This document shows positions 51,374-62,492 of a stretch of DNA of 64,000 bases, piece after piece (the first letter of the stretch is position 1; the number at the start of each line of letters is the position of its first letter). The DNA lies in the NCBI RefSeq assembly GCF_030053395.1, contig NZ_JASGBH010000010.1, positions 62,001 to 126,000 on the forward strand, written 5' to 3'. The DNA comes from Limnohabitans lacus (GTDB lineage: Bacteria; Pseudomonadota; Gammaproteobacteria; Burkholderiales; Burkholderiaceae_C). Position numbers and translations under genes: made by a program. Below the pieces are notes generated by a model. That model saw only the letters and a program-made list of their open reading frames with translations, was not told the origin of the DNA and did no database searches.

Positions 51374-53205
<1,832 letters not shown>

Positions 53206-53215
<10 letters not shown>

Positions 53216-53841
53216 ATTTGACCTCCCTGCAAGTGATGCAGGACGCCCCCGTGATCCCCGTGATCGTGTTGAACGACGTGGCCCACGCCGTGCCCATGGC
53301 CCGCGCCTTGCTGGCCGGTGGCATCCGCATGCTCGAAATCACGCTGCGCACGCCGCAGGCCCTGGCTTGCATGGAAGCGATTGCCAACGAAGTCGAAGGC
53401 GCCGTGGTGGGTGCAGGCACGGTGCGCAGCCCGCAAGACGCCGCCGCTGCCGTCAAAGCCGGTGCCCGTTTTGCAGTCAGCCCCGGCTACACCCCGGCAG
53501 TGGGCCAAGCTTGCAAAGACTTAGGTCTGCCTTTGTTGCCGGGTGTGTCCACCGGCAGCGAAATCATGATGGCCCAAGAGGGTGGCTACACCGAACTCAA
53601 ATTCTTCCCGGCCATGCAAGCGGGCGGCCCCGCCATGCTCAAGGCCTGGAGTGGCCCGTTCTTTGATGTGAAGTTTTGCCCCACAGGCGGCGTGACCCCA
53701 CAAAACGCCCACGAGCTGCTGAGCTTGCCCAATGTGGCTTGTGTGGGGGGATCGTGGTTGGTGCCTGCTGACGCCATGGCCCAAGGCGACTGGGCGCGTA
53801 TCGAAAAATTGGCGCGTGAGGCGACTCAGCTGGCACGTTGA
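53206..53841 (+). CDS. eda: KDPG aldolase
   Basis: A 211-aa class I aldolase that cleaves KDPG to pyruvate and glyceraldehyde-3-phosphate. The general base Glu44 ([10 protein letters not shown]) and Schiff-base Lys131 (TELKFFPAM) are present, with VGAGTVRSP and [10 protein letters not shown] phosphate-binding loops. It overlaps edd by 10 bp in another frame, so it is translationally coupled. It ends at a repeated hairpin shared with the convergent neighbour. A related KDPGal aldolase is encoded at 59 kb. Confidence 0.97.
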
Positions 53842-53875: not shown

Positions 53876-54553
53876 TCAGCGCACCGCCCAGCCGCCCGAC
53901 ATGGGAAAGGCTTGGCCGACAAAGCAGCTGGCAGCGTCGCTGCACAGGTAGGCCACAAAGCTCGCGTCTTCTTCGGCTTTGACCAAGCGGCCCAGCGGCA
54001 CTTCGCGCTTGAGGCGCTCTTGAAACCTCGGATTCGCCTGCACTTCGGCTGGGAAGTAGGTGGGGTTGTCGACAAAGTTTTGCGCCACGGCATTGAGCTG
54101 GATGTTGTCGGGCGCCAGTTCCACGCCTGCAGCCTGCACATAGGCCAGTTGCGCACCGCGTGCGGCGCTGTAGGTGGCGGCCCGCTTCATGCCGCGCAGG
54201 GCCGAGGCACTGCCCATCACAATGATTTTGCCGCCGCCACGGGCCTTCATGCCGGGCACGACCGCCCGCACCAAGCGGGGCAGTGGGTCGACCATCACCT
54301 CAAACACCTGGCGCCATTCGTCTTCGTCGATTTGCGTCACGGGGGTGGATGGCGCAGGCAGCGCCAGGTTGATCACCAGCGCATCGAGTGGGCCAGCCGT
54401 GTCGATCAGGGCCTGGGCATCGTGCGGTGCGGTGAGCAAGCGTTCGTCGGCGATCACCTCCGCGCCACATTGCGCCAAGGCCTGACACAAGGCCGGGCCC
54501 ATGAAGTCTTTGGCCTGGGTCACCAGGATGCGTTTGCCAGACAAGTTGACCAT
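53876..54553 (-). CDS. Halohydrin-dehalogenase-like SDR-fold protein
   Basis: A 225-aa Rossmann-fold protein related to short-chain dehydrogenases but lacking their cofactor motif TGxxxGIG. Instead residues 12-19 read TQAKDFMG, the T-x4-F-x-G pattern of halohydrin dehalogenases. The catalytic set is Ser115-x12-Tyr128-x3-Arg132 (Lys replaced by Arg), again the halohydrin dehalogenase triad; NFVDNPTYFP and GQAFPMSGGW match the halide-site and C-terminal regions of HheC from memory. Such enzymes make epoxides from vicinal haloalcohols and open epoxides with azide, cyanide or nitrite. AGGAG precedes the ATG at 54553. It lies 45 bp downstream of gloA on the same strand. Confidence 0.65.
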   Translation of the reverse strand: MVNLSGKRILVTQAKDFMGPALCQALAQCGAEVIADERLLTAPHDAQALIDTAGPLDALVINLALPAPSTPVTQIDEDEWRQVFEVMVDPLPRLVRAVVPGMKARGGGKIIVMGSASALRGMKRAATYSAARGAQLAYVQAAGVELAPDNIQLNAVAQNFVDNPTYFPAEVQANPRFQERLKREVPLGRLVKAEEDASFVAYLCSDAASCFVGQAFPMSGGWAVR

Positions 54554-54598
54554 GTGAGGACTCCTGAAAATGATCGCCTTTGGCGCTGATGCCAAGGC

Positions 54599-54997
54599 TC
54601 AGAGGTTCGCGTATTGCGGCCGCTGAATCAACTCGATCTTGTAGCCATCGGGATCGGTGACAAAGGCAATGACGGTACTGCCGCCTTTGACCGGGCCAGG
54701 CTCGCGCGTCACGTTGCCGCCAGCGGCTTTGATCTTGTCACAGGCGGCGTAAACGTCCGGCACACCCAGAGCGATGTGGCCATAGGCGCTGCCCATGTCA
54801 TAGCTGTCCACGCCCCAGTTGTACGTCAGCTCAATTTCGGCATGGTCTGGGTTGGTGCCGTAGCCGACAAATGCCAGCGAGTATTTGTACTCGGGGTTTT
54901 CCGAGGTGCGTTGCAGCGTCATGCCCAGCACTTGGGTGTAAAAGTCGATCGAGCGTTGCAGGTTGCCCACGCGCAGCATGGTGTGAAGAAGTCTCAT
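54599..54997 (-). CDS. gloA: Glyoxalase I (lactoylglutathione lyase), Ni-type
   Basis: A 132-aa glyoxalase that isomerises the methylglyoxal-glutathione adduct to S-lactoylglutathione. All four metal ligands are in the E. coli positions: His5, Glu56, His74 and Glu122; the short length without loops is the Ni/Co-dependent type. It is co-directional with the SDR upstream (205 bp away) and the dehalogenase-like gene downstream (45 bp). The 205-bp gap before the SDR gene shows GC-rich sequence with no clear promoter or terminator. Confidence 0.96.
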
Positions 54998-55202: not shown

Positions 55203-55997
55203 TCAAACAGGCACGGTGTAGTTGAGCGCCATGCGACCGCCATCCACGGTGACGATTTCCCCCGTGATGTAGCTGGCCGCGTCGCTGGCCAAAAAGGCCA
55301 CCACCTTGGCCACTTCATCGGGCTCTCCGAGGCGCTTCATCGGGGTGCGCATCATGATTTTCTTTTCGGCCGCTTCGCTCGTCAGCACCGCTTGGCGGGC
55401 CAGTTCGGTGGCGATCGTGCCGGGGGCTACCGCATTCACGCGGATGCCAAAGTCAGCCAGTGCCAAAGACATGGCCCGCGTCAACTGGTTGATGCCGCCT
55501 TTGCTCACGTTGTAGCTGGCGATGTTGGGGATGGCCAGCACCGCATTGACCGAGCTCATGTTGACGATGGCACCGCCCCCGGTGCCCTTCATGGCACGGG
55601 CTGCGGCCTGGCCCATCAGGAACGAGCCTTTGATGTTCACCTTGATCACCGCATCGAAGTCTTCCTCGGTCACGTCCAGAAAGTCGGCTGCCTTGAAGAT
55701 GCCCGCGTTGTTGACCAGCACGTCGATGCGGCCAAAGGCCTCCAGCACGTGGTCCACCAGGGCGTCGACATCGGCCTTGCGCGAAACGTCACAGGCCATG
55801 AAGCGGGCACTGTGGCCTTGTTCGCGCAGTTGCGCTGCAACGGCGTTGCCCCTCTCGCTGTTCACATCGGCCAGCACCACATGGGCTTGCTCGTGGGCAA
55901 AGCGGCGAGCACAGGCTTCGCCAATGCCATTGGCCGCGCCGGTGACGATGACCACGCGGCCTTGCAGACCGAAACTCAAATTGATCAAAGGGAACAT
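55203..55997 (-). CDS. Short-chain dehydrogenase/reductase (classical SDR)
   Basis: A 264-aa oxidoreductase with all classical SDR motifs: TGAANGIGEA (~19-28), DVNSE for NAD preference (Asp after strand 2), NNAG (~96), catalytic Ser in NMSSVNA and YNVSKGG (Tyr-x3-Lys), and PGTIATELAR. Asp rather than Arg in the second strand suggests NAD(H). The substrate is unknown; it resembles proteins annotated as glucose-1-dehydrogenase or 3-oxoacyl reductase. AGGAG lies 8 bases before the ATG. Confidence 0.92.
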   Translation of the reverse strand: MFPLINLSFGLQGRVVIVTGAANGIGEACARRFAHEQAHVVLADVNSERGNAVAAQLREQGHSARFMACDVSRKADVDALVDHVLEAFGRIDVLVNNAGIFKAADFLDVTEEDFDAVIKVNIKGSFLMGQAAARAMKGTGGGAIVNMSSVNAVLAIPNIASYNVSKGGINQLTRAMSLALADFGIRVNAVAPGTIATELARQAVLTSEAAEKKIMMRTPMKRLGEPDEVAKVVAFLASDAASYITGEIVTVDGGRMALNYTVPV

Positions 55998-58067: not shown

Positions 58068-58964
58068 TCATTTCAAGGCGTCGGTCATCACGAAGTTGTA
58101 TTGCAGCGTGAAGAAGTCGCGGTCCATGGTTTTGCCATCGGGCGCTGGTCCGGGTTTTTGCGGCACGAAGTCCGCAATCAGGGAAGGGCGCACGCCAAAT
58201 ACCGCATCGCTGTAGAGGTTTTGGCTGGTGCGGTCAAAGATGTGGGTGATCAAGGGGCGCTGTCCGGGCGCCTGGATGCGAAAGTGCAAATGCGCTGGGC
58301 GCCAGCTTCTGCCGGTGGTGGCCTTGAGCATTTGGATAGCGGTGCCGTCTTGGGGCACGGGGTAGTCCACCGGCAAGACCGACCAAAAGCTGTAACGGCC
58401 ATCGGCGCCGGTGGTCAACACCGCACGCGCCCAAGGGCCGTTTTCTTCGATGCCGTCTTGCACGTCGTACAGACCCCGATCGTCCGAATGCCAGACATCA
58501 ATGACCGCGTTGGCCACCGGTTGGCCATGGATGTCCAGAATTTGGCCTTGGGCATACATGGGTGTGCCAGCCGCGCCCGCACTGATGTCTGCGCCCATCG
58601 CAAACTGGGGCGCATTCTCAAGCAAGAAGGGGCCGACCAGGGTGGGCTCGGTGGCGTGTTCGGGGCGGGGGTAGTCCTGCGTCACGGTGAGCATGGACAA
58701 GCCAAAAGCGTCCGAAAAAATCATGAACTCGTTGCGGCCCGGCGAGCACCATTTGCCGGTCTCTTCGAGAAAGCTCATCGTGAAGGCCCATTCCTCGGCG
58801 GTGAGCTTGACCTCTTTGGCAAAGCTGTGGATGTGCTTGATCAAAGACAGCATCAGCTCACGCAGGCGTGGGTCGGGTGTTTTCGAGTAACGCGCCAGCA
58901 CCTCCTCGGTGATCAGGTGCAAAGCGTCGTAGCGGTGTTCGGTGGTGTTGGGGGTATCGCTCAT
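58068..58964 (-). CDS. Intradiol ring-cleavage dioxygenase (hydroxyquinol/catechol type)
   Basis: A 298-aa non-haem Fe(III) dioxygenase that opens catechol-type rings between the hydroxyls. It has an N-terminal helical dimerisation domain (~15-95) and the beta-sandwich catalytic domain. Iron ligands are Tyr166 (RGLYDVQ), Tyr201 (VDYPVPQ), His225 and His227 (RPAHLHFRI). GPFLLENAP and the overall length are closest to hydroxyquinol 1,2-dioxygenases, with catechol 1,2-dioxygenase as the alternative. It lies 41 bp downstream of the KDPGal aldolase gene on the same strand, an unusual neighbour. Confidence 0.9.
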   Translation of the reverse strand: MSDTPNTTEHRYDALHLITEEVLARYSKTPDPRLRELMLSLIKHIHSFAKEVKLTAEEWAFTMSFLEETGKWCSPGRNEFMIFSDAFGLSMLTVTQDYPRPEHATEPTLVGPFLLENAPQFAMGADISAGAAGTPMYAQGQILDIHGQPVANAVIDVWHSDDRGLYDVQDGIEENGPWARAVLTTGADGRYSFWSVLPVDYPVPQDGTAIQMLKATTGRSWRPAHLHFRIQAPGQRPLITHIFDRTSQNLYSDAVFGVRPSLIADFVPQKPGPAPDGKTMDRDFFTLQYNFVMTDALK

Positions 58965-59005: not shown

Positions 59006-59632
59006 TCAGCCCCGCAAGGCTCGCACAAAGCGCTGGGCTGCGGCGCCCACCTCTTGCGCCGATTGGCCCGGCTTGTACAACGCCGATCCCAAACCAAATC
59101 CTTTGGCGCCTGCGCTCAGGTAGGCGGCCATGTTGTCGGGTGTGATGCCGCCCACGGGCAGCAAAGCGGTGCTGCTGGGCAAGACCGCGCGCAGGGCCTT
59201 GAGCACGCTGGGGGTGATCATTTCGGCTGGGAAAAGTTTCAGGGCATGGGCGCCCGCATGCAGCGCTGCAAAGGCCTCGCTGGGCGTGGCCACGCCAGGC
59301 ACACAGACCAGACCCAGGCGCAAGGCTTCATGCACGACCACCGGATCAAAGTGCGGCGAAATGATGATGCGCCCGCCTGCGGCCTGCACCTCGCGCACCT
59401 GCGCGCTGGTGAGCACGGTGCCCGCGCCGATCAAATGGTTCGGGTGCTGCGCAGCCAAAGCCGCGATGCTCTCCAAAGGGCGGGGTGAGTTGAGCGGCAC
59501 TTCGATCAAGGCAAAGCCGCTGTCCACCAAGGCATGGCCGATGGCGGGCGCCTCTTCGGGCGTGAGGCCACGCAAAATGGCGACCAGCGGCAGTTGATCC
59601 AGCGCTTGCGCGAATTGTTCGGCAGTGTTCAT
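59006..59632 (-). CDS. dgoA: 2-Dehydro-3-deoxy-6-phosphogalactonate (KDPGal) aldolase
   Basis: A 208-aa class I aldolase of the Eda/DgoA family that cleaves KDPGal to pyruvate and glyceraldehyde-3-phosphate. General base Glu44 (FALIEVPLNSP) and Schiff-base Lys132 (HALKLFPAE) are present, with GAGTVLT and PVGGITPDN loops. The PLNSPRPLESI segment and its pairing with dgoK mark it as the galactonate type rather than Eda. The ATG at 59632 overlaps the dgoK stop (ATGA), so the two are coupled. Confidence 0.93.
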   Translation of the reverse strand: MNTAEQFAQALDQLPLVAILRGLTPEEAPAIGHALVDSGFALIEVPLNSPRPLESIAALAAQHPNHLIGAGTVLTSAQVREVQAAGGRIIISPHFDPVVVHEALRLGLVCVPGVATPSEAFAALHAGAHALKLFPAEMITPSVLKALRAVLPSSTALLPVGGITPDNMAAYLSAGAKGFGLGSALYKPGQSAQEVGAAAQRFVRALRG

Positions 59633-60537
59633 GCGGTGTGTGTCCAAGGTTGGGCCAAAGCGGCGTGTCCTGCCCAGGTGGCTTCATCGCCCAGGCATTG
59701 GCTGTCCATGCCCAAGGCGTGCAAAGCCACGGTGTAGCGCTGCGTGAGCTGGGCGCTGCCCACCAGCAGCACAGCACTGCCAGGGCGTGCCATGGCCCGC
59801 AGCTCTTCGCCGATCAAAAGGCCGGATAAAAATGAGGGGTGCTGCTCGGGCGGCAGGCTGCCAAACAGCGCCAGGGTGCGGGTGGCAAACATGCTCGACA
59901 GCACACTGGGTGTGCGCTGTGCCAATTGCACGCCGTGCACAAAAGCGCCTTCATGCCAGGGCGCATCGGCCTGCAGGGTGCGCGAGAGGATCGAATGCTG
60001 GCTCAAGAGCGCGAACACTTCACCGGTCATGAAGCTGCGAAAGCTCAGCACGCGCCCAGCCGCCACCTGCGCCCATTTGCTGTGGGTGCCGGGCAGAACC
60101 ACGGTGGCATCGCGCTGCCCCGACAAAGTCAGCGCACCAAAAATCTGGATCTCTTCGCCGCGCATCACATCGTGCTGCGGCACGGGCAGGCCATCGTGGT
60201 GCTGGCAGCTCAGGCCTGGCACGATCGCCATGCGCCCGGCTTGCAGCCAGTGCAGGGCGCCCGCCAATTCTTCAAAGCCCGCAGGGCAGGGGCAGTAGGG
60301 CGCTTCTTGCCAGCCTTGCTGGCTGCCCGCCATGCCCGAGATCAGGCAAAAGGCCTCGGGCGCTTGCATCCAGTCACCAAAGCATGCGTCAAACACGGCT
60401 TCAAACTGGCCTTTCGCCACGGTCATGATGCCGCGAGGGAACTGCCGCGATTCCAGGACTTGGCCTGCCGCATCCAAACGGGCGCCGCGCAAACTGCTGG
60501 TGCCCCAATCGACGGCGATCAATGGGCGTGTGCTCAT
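59629..60537 (-). CDS. dgoK: 2-Dehydro-3-deoxygalactonokinase
   Basis: A 302-aa DgoK-family kinase (ASKHA-type fold) that phosphorylates 2-keto-3-deoxygalactonate. VDWGTSSLRGARLD (~9-22) is the phosphate-1 motif, MRGEEIQIFGAL and VLPGTHSKWAQV are conserved, and GSAQLTQRY lies near the C-terminus. The ATG at 60537 overlaps the stop of the upstream PfkB kinase gene (ATGA). The open frame to 61107 is a shadow of that kinase. It acts directly before DgoA in the De Ley-Doudoroff route. Confidence 0.94.
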   Translation of the reverse strand: MSTRPLIAVDWGTSSLRGARLDAAGQVLESRQFPRGIMTVAKGQFEAVFDACFGDWMQAPEAFCLISGMAGSQQGWQEAPYCPCPAGFEELAGALHWLQAGRMAIVPGLSCQHHDGLPVPQHDVMRGEEIQIFGALTLSGQRDATVVLPGTHSKWAQVAAGRVLSFRSFMTGEVFALLSQHSILSRTLQADAPWHEGAFVHGVQLAQRTPSVLSSMFATRTLALFGSLPPEQHPSFLSGLLIGEELRAMARPGSAVLLVGSAQLTQRYTVALHALGMDSQCLGDEATWAGHAALAQPWTHTA

Positions 60538-61481
60538 GGCTGGAGGCTTTTCAAAACGGCATCGGGGCGTGGCAAGGGCGCGACCGCGCCATAGCCTTGC
60601 ACCGACAGCGAGGCCGCGGCATTGGCATAGGCGGTGGCGGTCCACACATCGTCGCCTTGCGACAGGCGTGCCAGCAAGTTGCCTGCAAAGCAGTCGCCAG
60701 CACCCGTGGCGTCCACCGCTTGCACGGCGCAGCCGGGCACACGTTGACGTGTCTGCCCATCGGAAGCGATCGCCCCCTCGGCGCCGAGTTTGAGCACCAC
60801 GTGCTGCGCGCCTTGTGCGTGGCACCAGTCCACGATGGCATCGGGCTCGGTCAAGCCGGTCAAGGCCGTGATGTCTTCCAAGCTGGGCAAGAACAGATCG
60901 CACAGCCCGATGGCGTGGGTGATGCACGCTTGGGCGCGGGCCAGCGGCCAGAGCAACAAACGCAAATTCGAGTCGAGCGCCACCCGCGTGCCCGAGGCAC
61001 GTGCGGTCTGCATGGCGGCCAAAGCCGTGTCGCAAGCCGATGCCGAAATCGCCAGGCTGATGCCCGACAAGTGCAGCCACCGGCTGGCTTCGATCGTGCC
61101 TTGCCAAGTCTGCACGTCAGAAGGCTGCATGCGGCTGGCGGCGGAGCCTGCGCGGGCATAGCTGAAGTGGTGGCCCTGTGCATCGTGGCTGACAAAGTAC
61201 ATGCCGGTGGGGGCATTCGCATCGCGCAGCACCGCTTGGGTGTTCACGTTCTCGCCTTGCCACAAATCCATCAGGCGGTCGCCCCAGCGGTCTGTGCCCA
61301 AGCGCGTGAGGTAGGCCACCTGAGCGCCGGCGCGGGCTGCAGCAATGGCCGCGTTGCTGGTGTCGCCGCCAAAGCCTTGCAGGTACAAAGGCGGATCCGC
61401 CTGCGTCTGGTTGAACTCGACCATGGCCTCACCCAAGGCCACGATGTCGCATGTTTTGACGCGTGTGGTCTCAGCGCACAT
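60534..61481 (-). CDS. kdgK: PfkB-family 2-dehydro-3-deoxygluconokinase (KdgK-like)
   Basis: A 315-aa ribokinase-fold kinase. LQGFGGDTSNAAIAAARAGA (~34-53) is the sugar-binding N-terminal motif and VDATGAGDCFAGNLL (~259-273) the ATP/catalytic motif with base Asp. The GDTSN box is typical of KDG kinases, which phosphorylate 2-keto-3-deoxygluconate to KDPG. That product would be cleaved by Eda encoded at 53 kb. It overlaps dgoK by 4 bp and follows the DenD-like gene by 6 bp. Two kinases of different folds in one operon suggest that both keto-deoxy epimers are processed. Confidence 0.9.
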   Translation of the reverse strand: MCAETTRVKTCDIVALGEAMVEFNQTQADPPLYLQGFGGDTSNAAIAAARAGAQVAYLTRLGTDRWGDRLMDLWQGENVNTQAVLRDANAPTGMYFVSHDAQGHHFSYARAGSAASRMQPSDVQTWQGTIEASRWLHLSGISLAISASACDTALAAMQTARASGTRVALDSNLRLLLWPLARAQACITHAIGLCDLFLPSLEDITALTGLTEPDAIVDWCHAQGAQHVVLKLGAEGAIASDGQTRQRVPGCAVQAVDATGAGDCFAGNLLARLSQGDDVWTATAYANAAASLSVQGYGAVAPLPRPDAVLKSLQP

Positions 61482-61487
61482 GGCGAC

Positions 61488-62492
61488 TCAGTTCAAGCCC
61501 TTCAAGGCATCGGCCGGGTAGCCGGGGCGTGTTTGGCAGTCTTCGATGTATTGCGCGATGATGGCCTCGAAGTTGCTCTCGGCTTTCAAGCCCAGCGCGT
61601 TGGCACGCTCAGAGGTCGAGCCACGCGACCAATTGGCCACAATGCCCGCCACGCGCTCGTCGCGCTCGAACTTCACCCGTGCACGCACGGCAGGGCCTGC
61701 AACTTTTTCAAGCGCGTCCAGCATCTGGCCCACCGTCACATTCAGGCCTGGCAGGTTCAGCGCCATGCGGCCCCCCACGGCTTCGCGGCTGGCTTCAAAC
61801 ACGGTGATGAGGCCGTGAATCGTGTTGCCCGGTGAAGACAAGGGGTGCGAGACACTGGCGTCCACAGGGCAGACGGCGTCCACGCCCGCCAGAGGCTCGC
61901 GGATGATGCCGCTGAAAAACGAGGAAGCTGCGCCGTTGGGCTTGCCGGGGCGAACGGCCACAGTCATCAAGCGGGCCGAGCGGCCATCGATGTAGCCCTT
62001 GCGGGTGTAGTCGGACACCATGTGCTCGATCATCAGCTTGTGCGTGCCATAAGACGTTTGTGGCGTGGGCAAGGTGGTGTCGGTCACCAGGTCGGGCATG
62101 GGGTTGCCGATGTCGGGGCCGAACACGGCCACCGAGCTGGCAAACACCAGACGGGAAGCTTTGCCCGAGGCTCGGATGCTGTCGAGCAGCAAGCGGCTGC
62201 TGTCCACGTTGGAGCGCAAGCCCAGGTCAAAGTCGAGCTCACACTCGCCCGACACGGCCGAGGCCAGGTGGAACACACCGTCAAAACCGCTCTTGAACAA
62301 ATTGCCTTGTTCCAGCATGGGGCCCGCATGGCCCTTGACCCGGGGGTCGGACAACAGGTCGGCGGGGGCGGGGAAGAGGTCGGCAATGACCAATTCGCTC
62401 ACGCTTTGGCCATTCAATTGGCCACGTTTCAATATCTCGCGGGCCAGTCGGGCACCCAAAAATCCGGCACCGCCGGTGATCAAAATGCGCAT
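61488..62492 (-). CDS. denD: NAD-dependent epimerase/dehydratase-family protein, D-erythronate dehydrogenase-like
   Basis: A 334-aa extended SDR with ITGGAGFLGARLARE (~4-18) for NAD binding, a Ser in FASSVAVFG and the YGTHK catalytic Tyr-x3-Lys. The segments TVAVRPGKPNGAASSFFSGI and NLPGLNVTVGQMLDALEKVA are very like D-erythronate dehydrogenase (DenD), which oxidises D-erythronate at C2. No OtnC, OtnI or OtnK partner is visible here, so another sugar acid may be its substrate. AGGA lies 9 bases before the ATG at 62492; the frame to 62603 enters the REP pair. It is first of the four tightly packed genes. Confidence 0.85.
   Translation of the reverse strand: MRILITGGAGFLGARLAREILKRGQLNGQSVSELVIADLFPAPADLLSDPRVKGHAGPMLEQGNLFKSGFDGVFHLASAVSGECELDFDLGLRSNVDSSRLLLDSIRASGKASRLVFASSVAVFGPDIGNPMPDLVTDTTLPTPQTSYGTHKLMIEHMVSDYTRKGYIDGRSARLMTVAVRPGKPNGAASSFFSGIIREPLAGVDAVCPVDASVSHPLSSPGNTIHGLITVFEASREAVGGRMALNLPGLNVTVGQMLDALEKVAGPAVRARVKFERDERVAGIVANWSRGSTSERANALGLKAESNFEAIIAQYIEDCQTRPGYPADALKGLN

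Follow-up and report, generated by a model that had tools for sequence, protein, structure and literature searches.

A probable D-type halohydrin dehalogenase of Limnohabitans lacus, encoded by an accessory gene that comes and goes beside gloA

Halohydrin dehalogenases (HHDHs) are used for the synthesis of epoxides and chiral alcohols. According to the available excerpts of PMC4989007 and PMC11976700, the family is defined by two motifs, T-x4-F/Y-x-G and S-x12-Y-x3-R; the excerpts of the former, a family review, further describe the enzymes as homotetramers and leave their natural role open. The D-type enzymes are an already known subfamily with assayed members, within which HheD19 to HheD38 share 57–95% identity with the assayed HheD to HheD6 (PMC4989007, excerpts), and HheD2 is described as a halohydrin dehalogenase from a gammaproteobacterium (PMC5892878, excerpts), the structure 7b73 being named as a halohydrin dehalogenase in the part of PMC9629495 consulted. 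The present study examined a 64,000-nucleotide stretch of the Limnohabitans lacus genome (the window; GCF_030053395.1, contig NZ_JASGBH010000010.1, positions 62,001 to 126,000), in which the gene here called hhe adds a new member to this subfamily.

The product of hhe would be a D-type, cofactor-free enzyme acting on haloalcohols and epoxides, probably as an accessory function in detoxification or catabolism. This reading was given a probability of roughly 0.88; in its favour are the two motifs, the identities to HheD2 and HheD8, a position in the tree apart from the classical short-chain dehydrogenases/reductases (SDRs) of the host, the structural matches, purifying selection on the gene and a type II 2-haloacid dehalogenase in the host genome. 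The gene and the elements of its product are as follows.

53876..54553, minus strand: hhe, predicted D-type halohydrin dehalogenase gene, 225 amino acids, with an ATG start and a translation ending in a stop codon
54497..54520, minus strand: motif 1, T12-QAKD-F17-M-G19, putative nucleophile pocket, replacing the SDR motif TGxxxGxG
54158..54211, minus strand: motif 2, S115-x12-Y128-x3-R132, predicted catalytic triad, single match, SASALRGMKRAATYSAAR
54050..54079, minus strand: NFVDNPTYFP, residues 159–168, a loop likened to the halide site by the initial annotation

An AGGAG stretch resembling a ribosome-binding site lies directly 5' of the ATG. The pattern T-x4-[FY]-x-G occurs once in the protein, as TQAKDFMG at residues 12–19, where the cofactor motif of classical SDRs (T-G/A-x3-G/A-x-G) would be expected and is absent; the SDR pattern S-x10-14-Y-x3-K is likewise missing, its lysine being replaced by Arg132. 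Ser115, Tyr128 and Arg132 are invariant in all 31 rows of the alignment. The initial annotation had reported the loss of the cofactor motif, with TQAKDFMG in its place, and the Ser115-x12-Tyr128-x3-Arg132 set; both were recovered by translation and motif scanning, the latter pattern occurring once, and its attribution of the two patterns to HHDHs agrees with the excerpts of PMC4989007 and PMC11976700. The NFVDNPTYFP loop is identical in HheD2 and shares nine of ten residues with the HheD8 mutant when the PDB sequences are compared, and has low confidence in the structure model of the protein. The absence of an NAD(P) cofactor motif is read from the sequence, the predicted model being weak at several loops.

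Sequence comparison placed the protein next to characterised D- and B-type enzymes. The best PDB match was HheD2 (7b73; 330.7 bits, E 3.8e-98), followed by the HheD8 mutant (8xxb; 283.5 bits), HheB (4zd6, 172 bits; 5b12, 168.1 bits), 6a41 (123.8 bits) and then HheA-type entries, with SDRs scoring lower in the same search (88.3 bits for the SDR-labelled Thermus entry 9fe6, 83.3 bits for DHRS4). Identity to HheD2 reaches 68% over 222 residues, with both motifs shared, leaving about one third of the residues different. HheD8 is 59% identical; its deposited sequence is, by its title, a triple mutant (A69F/M124P/R127G) solved with chloride, and its loop reads NFVENPTYFP. Both identities fall inside the 57–95% range of the subtype. 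HheB, similarly short and with both motifs (Tyr taking the place of Phe17), is 43% identical and differs in its loop, AQHWTQNKEYFWPE.

The initial annotation had proposed comparison by phylogeny and by structure, and both were consistent with its assignment. In a maximum-likelihood tree of 45 rows, the query formed one clade with HheD2 and HheD8 (support 97/89), with HheB in the neighbouring clade and the SDR rows separated by a branch supported at 100/99. In Foldseek, the top ten chains comprised HheD2 (four), HheD8, HheB (four) and 6a41, titled 'Dehalogenation enzyme'. Within the host genome the D-type copy is single, the next SDR match having 33% identity, and the protein is 25–32% identical to seven host SDRs. 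The seven other SDRs that were read (L031–L037) carry TGxxxGxG or TAxxxGxG together with Y-x3-K; loci existed for the best eight of the 24 own-genome SDR matches, the remaining 16 having none.

Several points qualify these comparisons. The entry 7wkq, also named a halohydrin dehalogenase, scored 82.5 bits, no better than true SDRs, and the PDB ranking therefore indicates kinship with the D and B types, not closeness to every HHDH. The tree comprised only eight SDR rows and no HheC, HheE, HheF or HheG, was rooted at the midpoint, and included long branches that the program flagged. Furthermore, an unrelated 308-residue frame in L035 matches both motif patterns when position is ignored, so the patterns need the backing of position and kinship.

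The motifs are retained among relatives. In a survey of the query and 120 listed homologues (of 7583), 119 of the 121 proteins had motif 2 together with a motif 1 located in their first 45 residues, the two exceptions (P0008 and P0057) having N-terminal extensions with motif 1 further in. Both motifs were also kept in 82 of 85 D-type genes of at least 600 nucleotides from the fetched loci, a count that includes some duplicate loci and excludes L028 and L029 as too short; the three exceptions were one contig-end gene represented twice (L016, L146) and the gene of L145, whose reading lacks the middle of motif 1. Where source databases name these relatives, the labels are 'SDR family oxidoreductase', '2-keto-3-deoxy-L-fuconate dehydrogenase' or, once, 'putative ketoacyl reductase', much as the initial annotation had foreseen in expecting automatic naming as a plain SDR. 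No NCBIfam model matched the hhe protein above its cut-off among the best 25 of 184 matches.

By homology, catalysis would begin with Arg132 lowering the pKa of Tyr128, which would deprotonate a vicinal halo-alcohol while Ser115 presumably holds the substrate oxygen. The resulting alkoxide would then close to the epoxide as halide leaves into the pocket that residues T12, F17 and G19 of motif 1 line. Such a reaction would need no NAD(P)H and would be reversible, allowing halide, azide, cyanide or nitrite to open epoxides.

D-type genes are frequent in the family to which the host belongs. The nearest records came from a Comamonadaceae metagenome-assembled genome (95%), Limnohabitans sp. Jir72 (92%) and L. 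planktonicus II-D5 (91%). Matches to hhe were found in 26 of 90 sampled genomes of the genus, 19 of 56 when counting good genomes (E 1e-40), and a D-type gene in 59 of 399 sampled genomes of the family, spread over 40 of 141 genera (E 1e-45); across the class, five of 369 sampled genomes had a D-type match, the host included. The description of HHDHs as a small family in the initial annotation is thus out of date, given the 59 family genomes with a D-type gene. More than one D-type lineage occurs in the genus: the copies of G027, G071 and G074 are 64–66% identical to hhe and fall in a different part of the D-type clade, while the other matches are 84–95% identical. The loci of this second lineage (L152 in G027, L142 in G071, L143 in G074) lie at other genomic places, and the receptor-type gene that also occurs between gloA and eda in three congeners (see below) adjoins the D-type gene in L143 and is three genes away in L142.

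The gene has the following neighbours in the window.

54554..54598, minus strand: gap of 45 nucleotides between the gloA stop and the hhe start
54599..54997, minus strand: gloA, lactoylglutathione lyase (glyoxalase I), 132 amino acids; TIGR00068, 171 bits, cut-off 120
53206..53841, plus strand: eda, KDPG/KHG aldolase, convergent to hhe; TIGR01182, 253.9 bits, cut-off 156.05
51374..53215, plus strand: upstream of eda, presumably edd (6-phosphogluconate dehydratase), a syntenic neighbour
55203..55997, minus strand: classical SDR with TGAANGIG and Y-x3-K, contrast protein and tree outgroup

The gloA gene stands immediately upstream of hhe on the same strand, two further GloA models (NF007629 and NF050074) matching it below their cut-offs. 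Co-transcription of the two genes is likely because the spacing between them is short, and no terminator-like site was listed in the gap. The SDR gene at 55203..55997 belongs to the conserved neighbourhood. Further along, an intradiol dioxygenase gene (58068–58964, minus strand) matches PF00775 and PF04444 and does not reach the NCBIfam thresholds of the catechol or chlorocatechol 1,2-dioxygenase models, and a run of genes at 59006–62492 (minus strand), beside edd/eda, appears by eye to encode sugar-acid aldolase-, kinase- and epimerase-like proteins, with counterparts in several related loci.

Across the genus, hhe behaves as an accessory gene, present or absent at a single fixed position next to gloA. 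Eighty gloA loci from 79 of the 90 genomes (E 1e-45) were compared, with hhe positions set by tblastn, gene calls being faulty at some loci (e.g., L005, L015 and L020). At 21 loci the gene followed gloA immediately and in the same direction, and none of the 80 had it in another arrangement within the 0.2–3 kb examined beyond gloA. Among the 59 others, 46 lacked hhe and had eda facing gloA within 600 nucleotides; at many hhe-empty loci the tblastn matches of gloA and eda end 5–45 nucleotides apart. Of the other 13 loci, that of G034 is cut off by a contig end, that of G040 has a long gap in which no gene was called, eight have other neighbours, and in three (G013, G023 and G055) an unrelated receptor-type gene, which we take to encode a periplasmic Bug/TctC protein, occupies the gloA–eda slot in the opposite direction. 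Viewed over all these junctions (L156–L185, L190–L239), the site behaves as an exchangeable slot, mostly a short gap when it holds neither hhe nor the receptor-type gene. Twenty-one of the 26 hhe-positive genomes carry the gene in the slot. As for the other five, G006 has an empty slot and a same-lineage copy elsewhere, G074 has its divergent copy away from its gloA, G027 and G071 combine the divergent type with no gloA match, and G050, likewise without a gloA match, has a piece of hhe where a contig begins.

On a tree of gloA and eda covering 63 loci, 18 of them with hhe (17 of the 80 were left out for a missing gene or coverage), presence of hhe switches ten times (10–12 over bootstraps), and the well-supported branches alone force five changes; these are switches of state and not losses as such, since recombination may have moved the genes on either side along with hhe. 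Where present, the gene is under purifying selection, with a median ratio of non-synonymous to synonymous substitution rates (dN/dS) of 0.071 (136 pairs, 17 alleles), its neighbours having medians of 0.058 (sdr), 0.085 (edd) and 0.086 (gloA). A tblastn search for hhe remnants in those gaps longer than 100 nucleotides among 16 empty sites returned nothing better than E 2.7. Correlations between hhe and neighbour distances, ranging from r = 0.20 (gloA) to 0.73 (chaC) over 7–17 taxa with no permutation test, were too mixed to use.

Possible gene fusions were also considered and rejected. In the 368-residue protein P0008, a GloA portion precedes the HHDH part but leaves the proper frame after about 87 residues, and the protein was taken for a frameshift artefact. 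The frames of 427–428 codons that cover hhe in G004, G005 and G014 (L148, L147 and L149) are not fusions, since a separate gloA call ends before hhe.

The wider genomic context was searched for enzymes that might act together with the predicted dehalogenase. No EHN-type epoxide hydrolase was found in the 90 genus genomes, epoxide hydrolases without the EHN domain not having been searched genus-wide, and no limonene-type hydrolase was found in the host genome. Over the family, an EHN match occurred in seven of the 59 genomes with a D-type gene and in 26 of the 340 without one (p = 0.30, not significant). A type II 2-haloacid dehalogenase scored over the cut-off in the host and in 49 of the 90 genus genomes, namely 18 of 26 with hhe and 31 of 64 without (p = 0.10, not significant). 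Among the D-type loci outside the slot, no neighbouring gene recurred enough to suggest a pathway, the commonest loose cluster being a receptor type at five loci, presumably Bug/TctC; receptors of this type are abundant in these bacteria.

The plasmid pSA2 of Novosphingobium and a plasmid of Microbacterium sp. J1-1 carry HHDH-like genes whose products are 44% and 33% identical to the hhe protein. In both, an epoxide hydrolase gene lies directly upstream, whereas gloA and eda adjoin hhe in the window; the classical arrangement of an HHDH gene in an operon with an epoxide hydrolase therefore exists elsewhere and was not found here. The pSA2 gene (L187, 4992–5669) groups with HheB, has Ser for Thr at the start of motif 1, and lies near aldehyde and acyl-CoA dehydrogenase genes. 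The other two plasmid matches are classical SDRs by motif. The open-access literature searched did not join halohydrin dehalogenase with Limnohabitans, save in one reference title, and yielded nothing on point for the role or habitat of HHDHs.

Against this background, a classical NAD(P)-dependent SDR oxidoreductase with a drifted cofactor motif is highly improbable: TGxxxGxG and Y-x3-K are both absent, the protein is only 225 residues long, its match to many SDRs begins only near residue 46, and it shares a clade with HheD2 and HheD8. An HHDH fold whose natural reaction is not dehalogenation is a tentative possibility, on the unlikely side. Such an enzyme would apply the same chemistry to an epoxide from the cell or from algae with a different leaving group or nucleophile, such as nitrite, cyanide or cyanate, and dehalogenation would be a side activity. 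The excerpts of PMC4989007 allow for other physiological functions and mention only two then-known HHDH genes in an operon with an epoxide hydrolase, and both the breadth of D-type genes in the family and the lack of an EHN-type match in 52 of the 59 genomes carrying one, with non-significant co-occurrence, accord with such a role. Direct evidence for a substrate of this kind is missing, however, as is any recurrent pathway gene in the neighbourhoods outside the slot.

Another explanation would make gloA and hhe a functional operon for detoxifying electrophiles of one source, the former removing 2-oxoaldehydes and the latter epoxides or haloalcohols. The constant same-strand placement at the 21 genus loci and the 45-nucleotide gap in the window argue for it, as do two further genera in which a D-type gene lies within 2.3 kb of gloA: in L107 the distance is 2250 nucleotides (hhe 69% identical) and in L145 (G427) it is 1929 nucleotides (63% identical), gloA being on the opposite strand in both, against a random expectation of about 0.07 (63 x 4.6 kb / 4 Mb) that is rough and post hoc and carries no test. 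However, none of the 63 D-type loci away from the slot had gloA adjacent within the sequence examined (at least 2 kb was available on both sides in 51; the duplicates L016 and L026 and the partial loci L028 and L029 were dropped), the same-lineage copy of G006 sits away from its empty slot, an unrelated gene fills the slot in three congeners, and the L145 gene reads without the middle of motif 1. We consider this operon doubtful. The D-type gene of L145 is, in addition, near homologues of pdxH, chaC and a thioesterase gene as well as of gloA. The HHDH identity proposed by the initial annotation accordingly stands on the motifs, the 68% identity to HheD2 and the clade, while its suggestion of joint detoxification with glyoxalase I is only partly supported, the adjacency having been found at one slot in one genus. 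A broader proposal is speculative and decidedly unlikely: rather than being chiefly pollutant-degrading enzymes, D-type HHDHs would serve detoxification as common accessory genes among Burkholderiales, freshwater ones included, and hhe of this genus would be an exchangeable unit of a gloA operon, the two enzymes jointly clearing the 2-oxoaldehydes and the halohydrins or epoxides that sugar catabolism or algal haloperoxidase chemistry produces.

A D-type HHDH thus remains the preferred reading of hhe, and the enzyme may contribute, as an accessory function, to the removal or use of natural haloalcohols or epoxides. Genes of this type are common across the bacterial family, where many carry the name of some other oxidoreductase in their source records. 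The more useful part of the finding is the on/off slot beside gloA, because related bacteria with and without a single HHDH gene at the same spot constitute a natural experiment in which the natural function of the enzyme becomes testable in near relatives.
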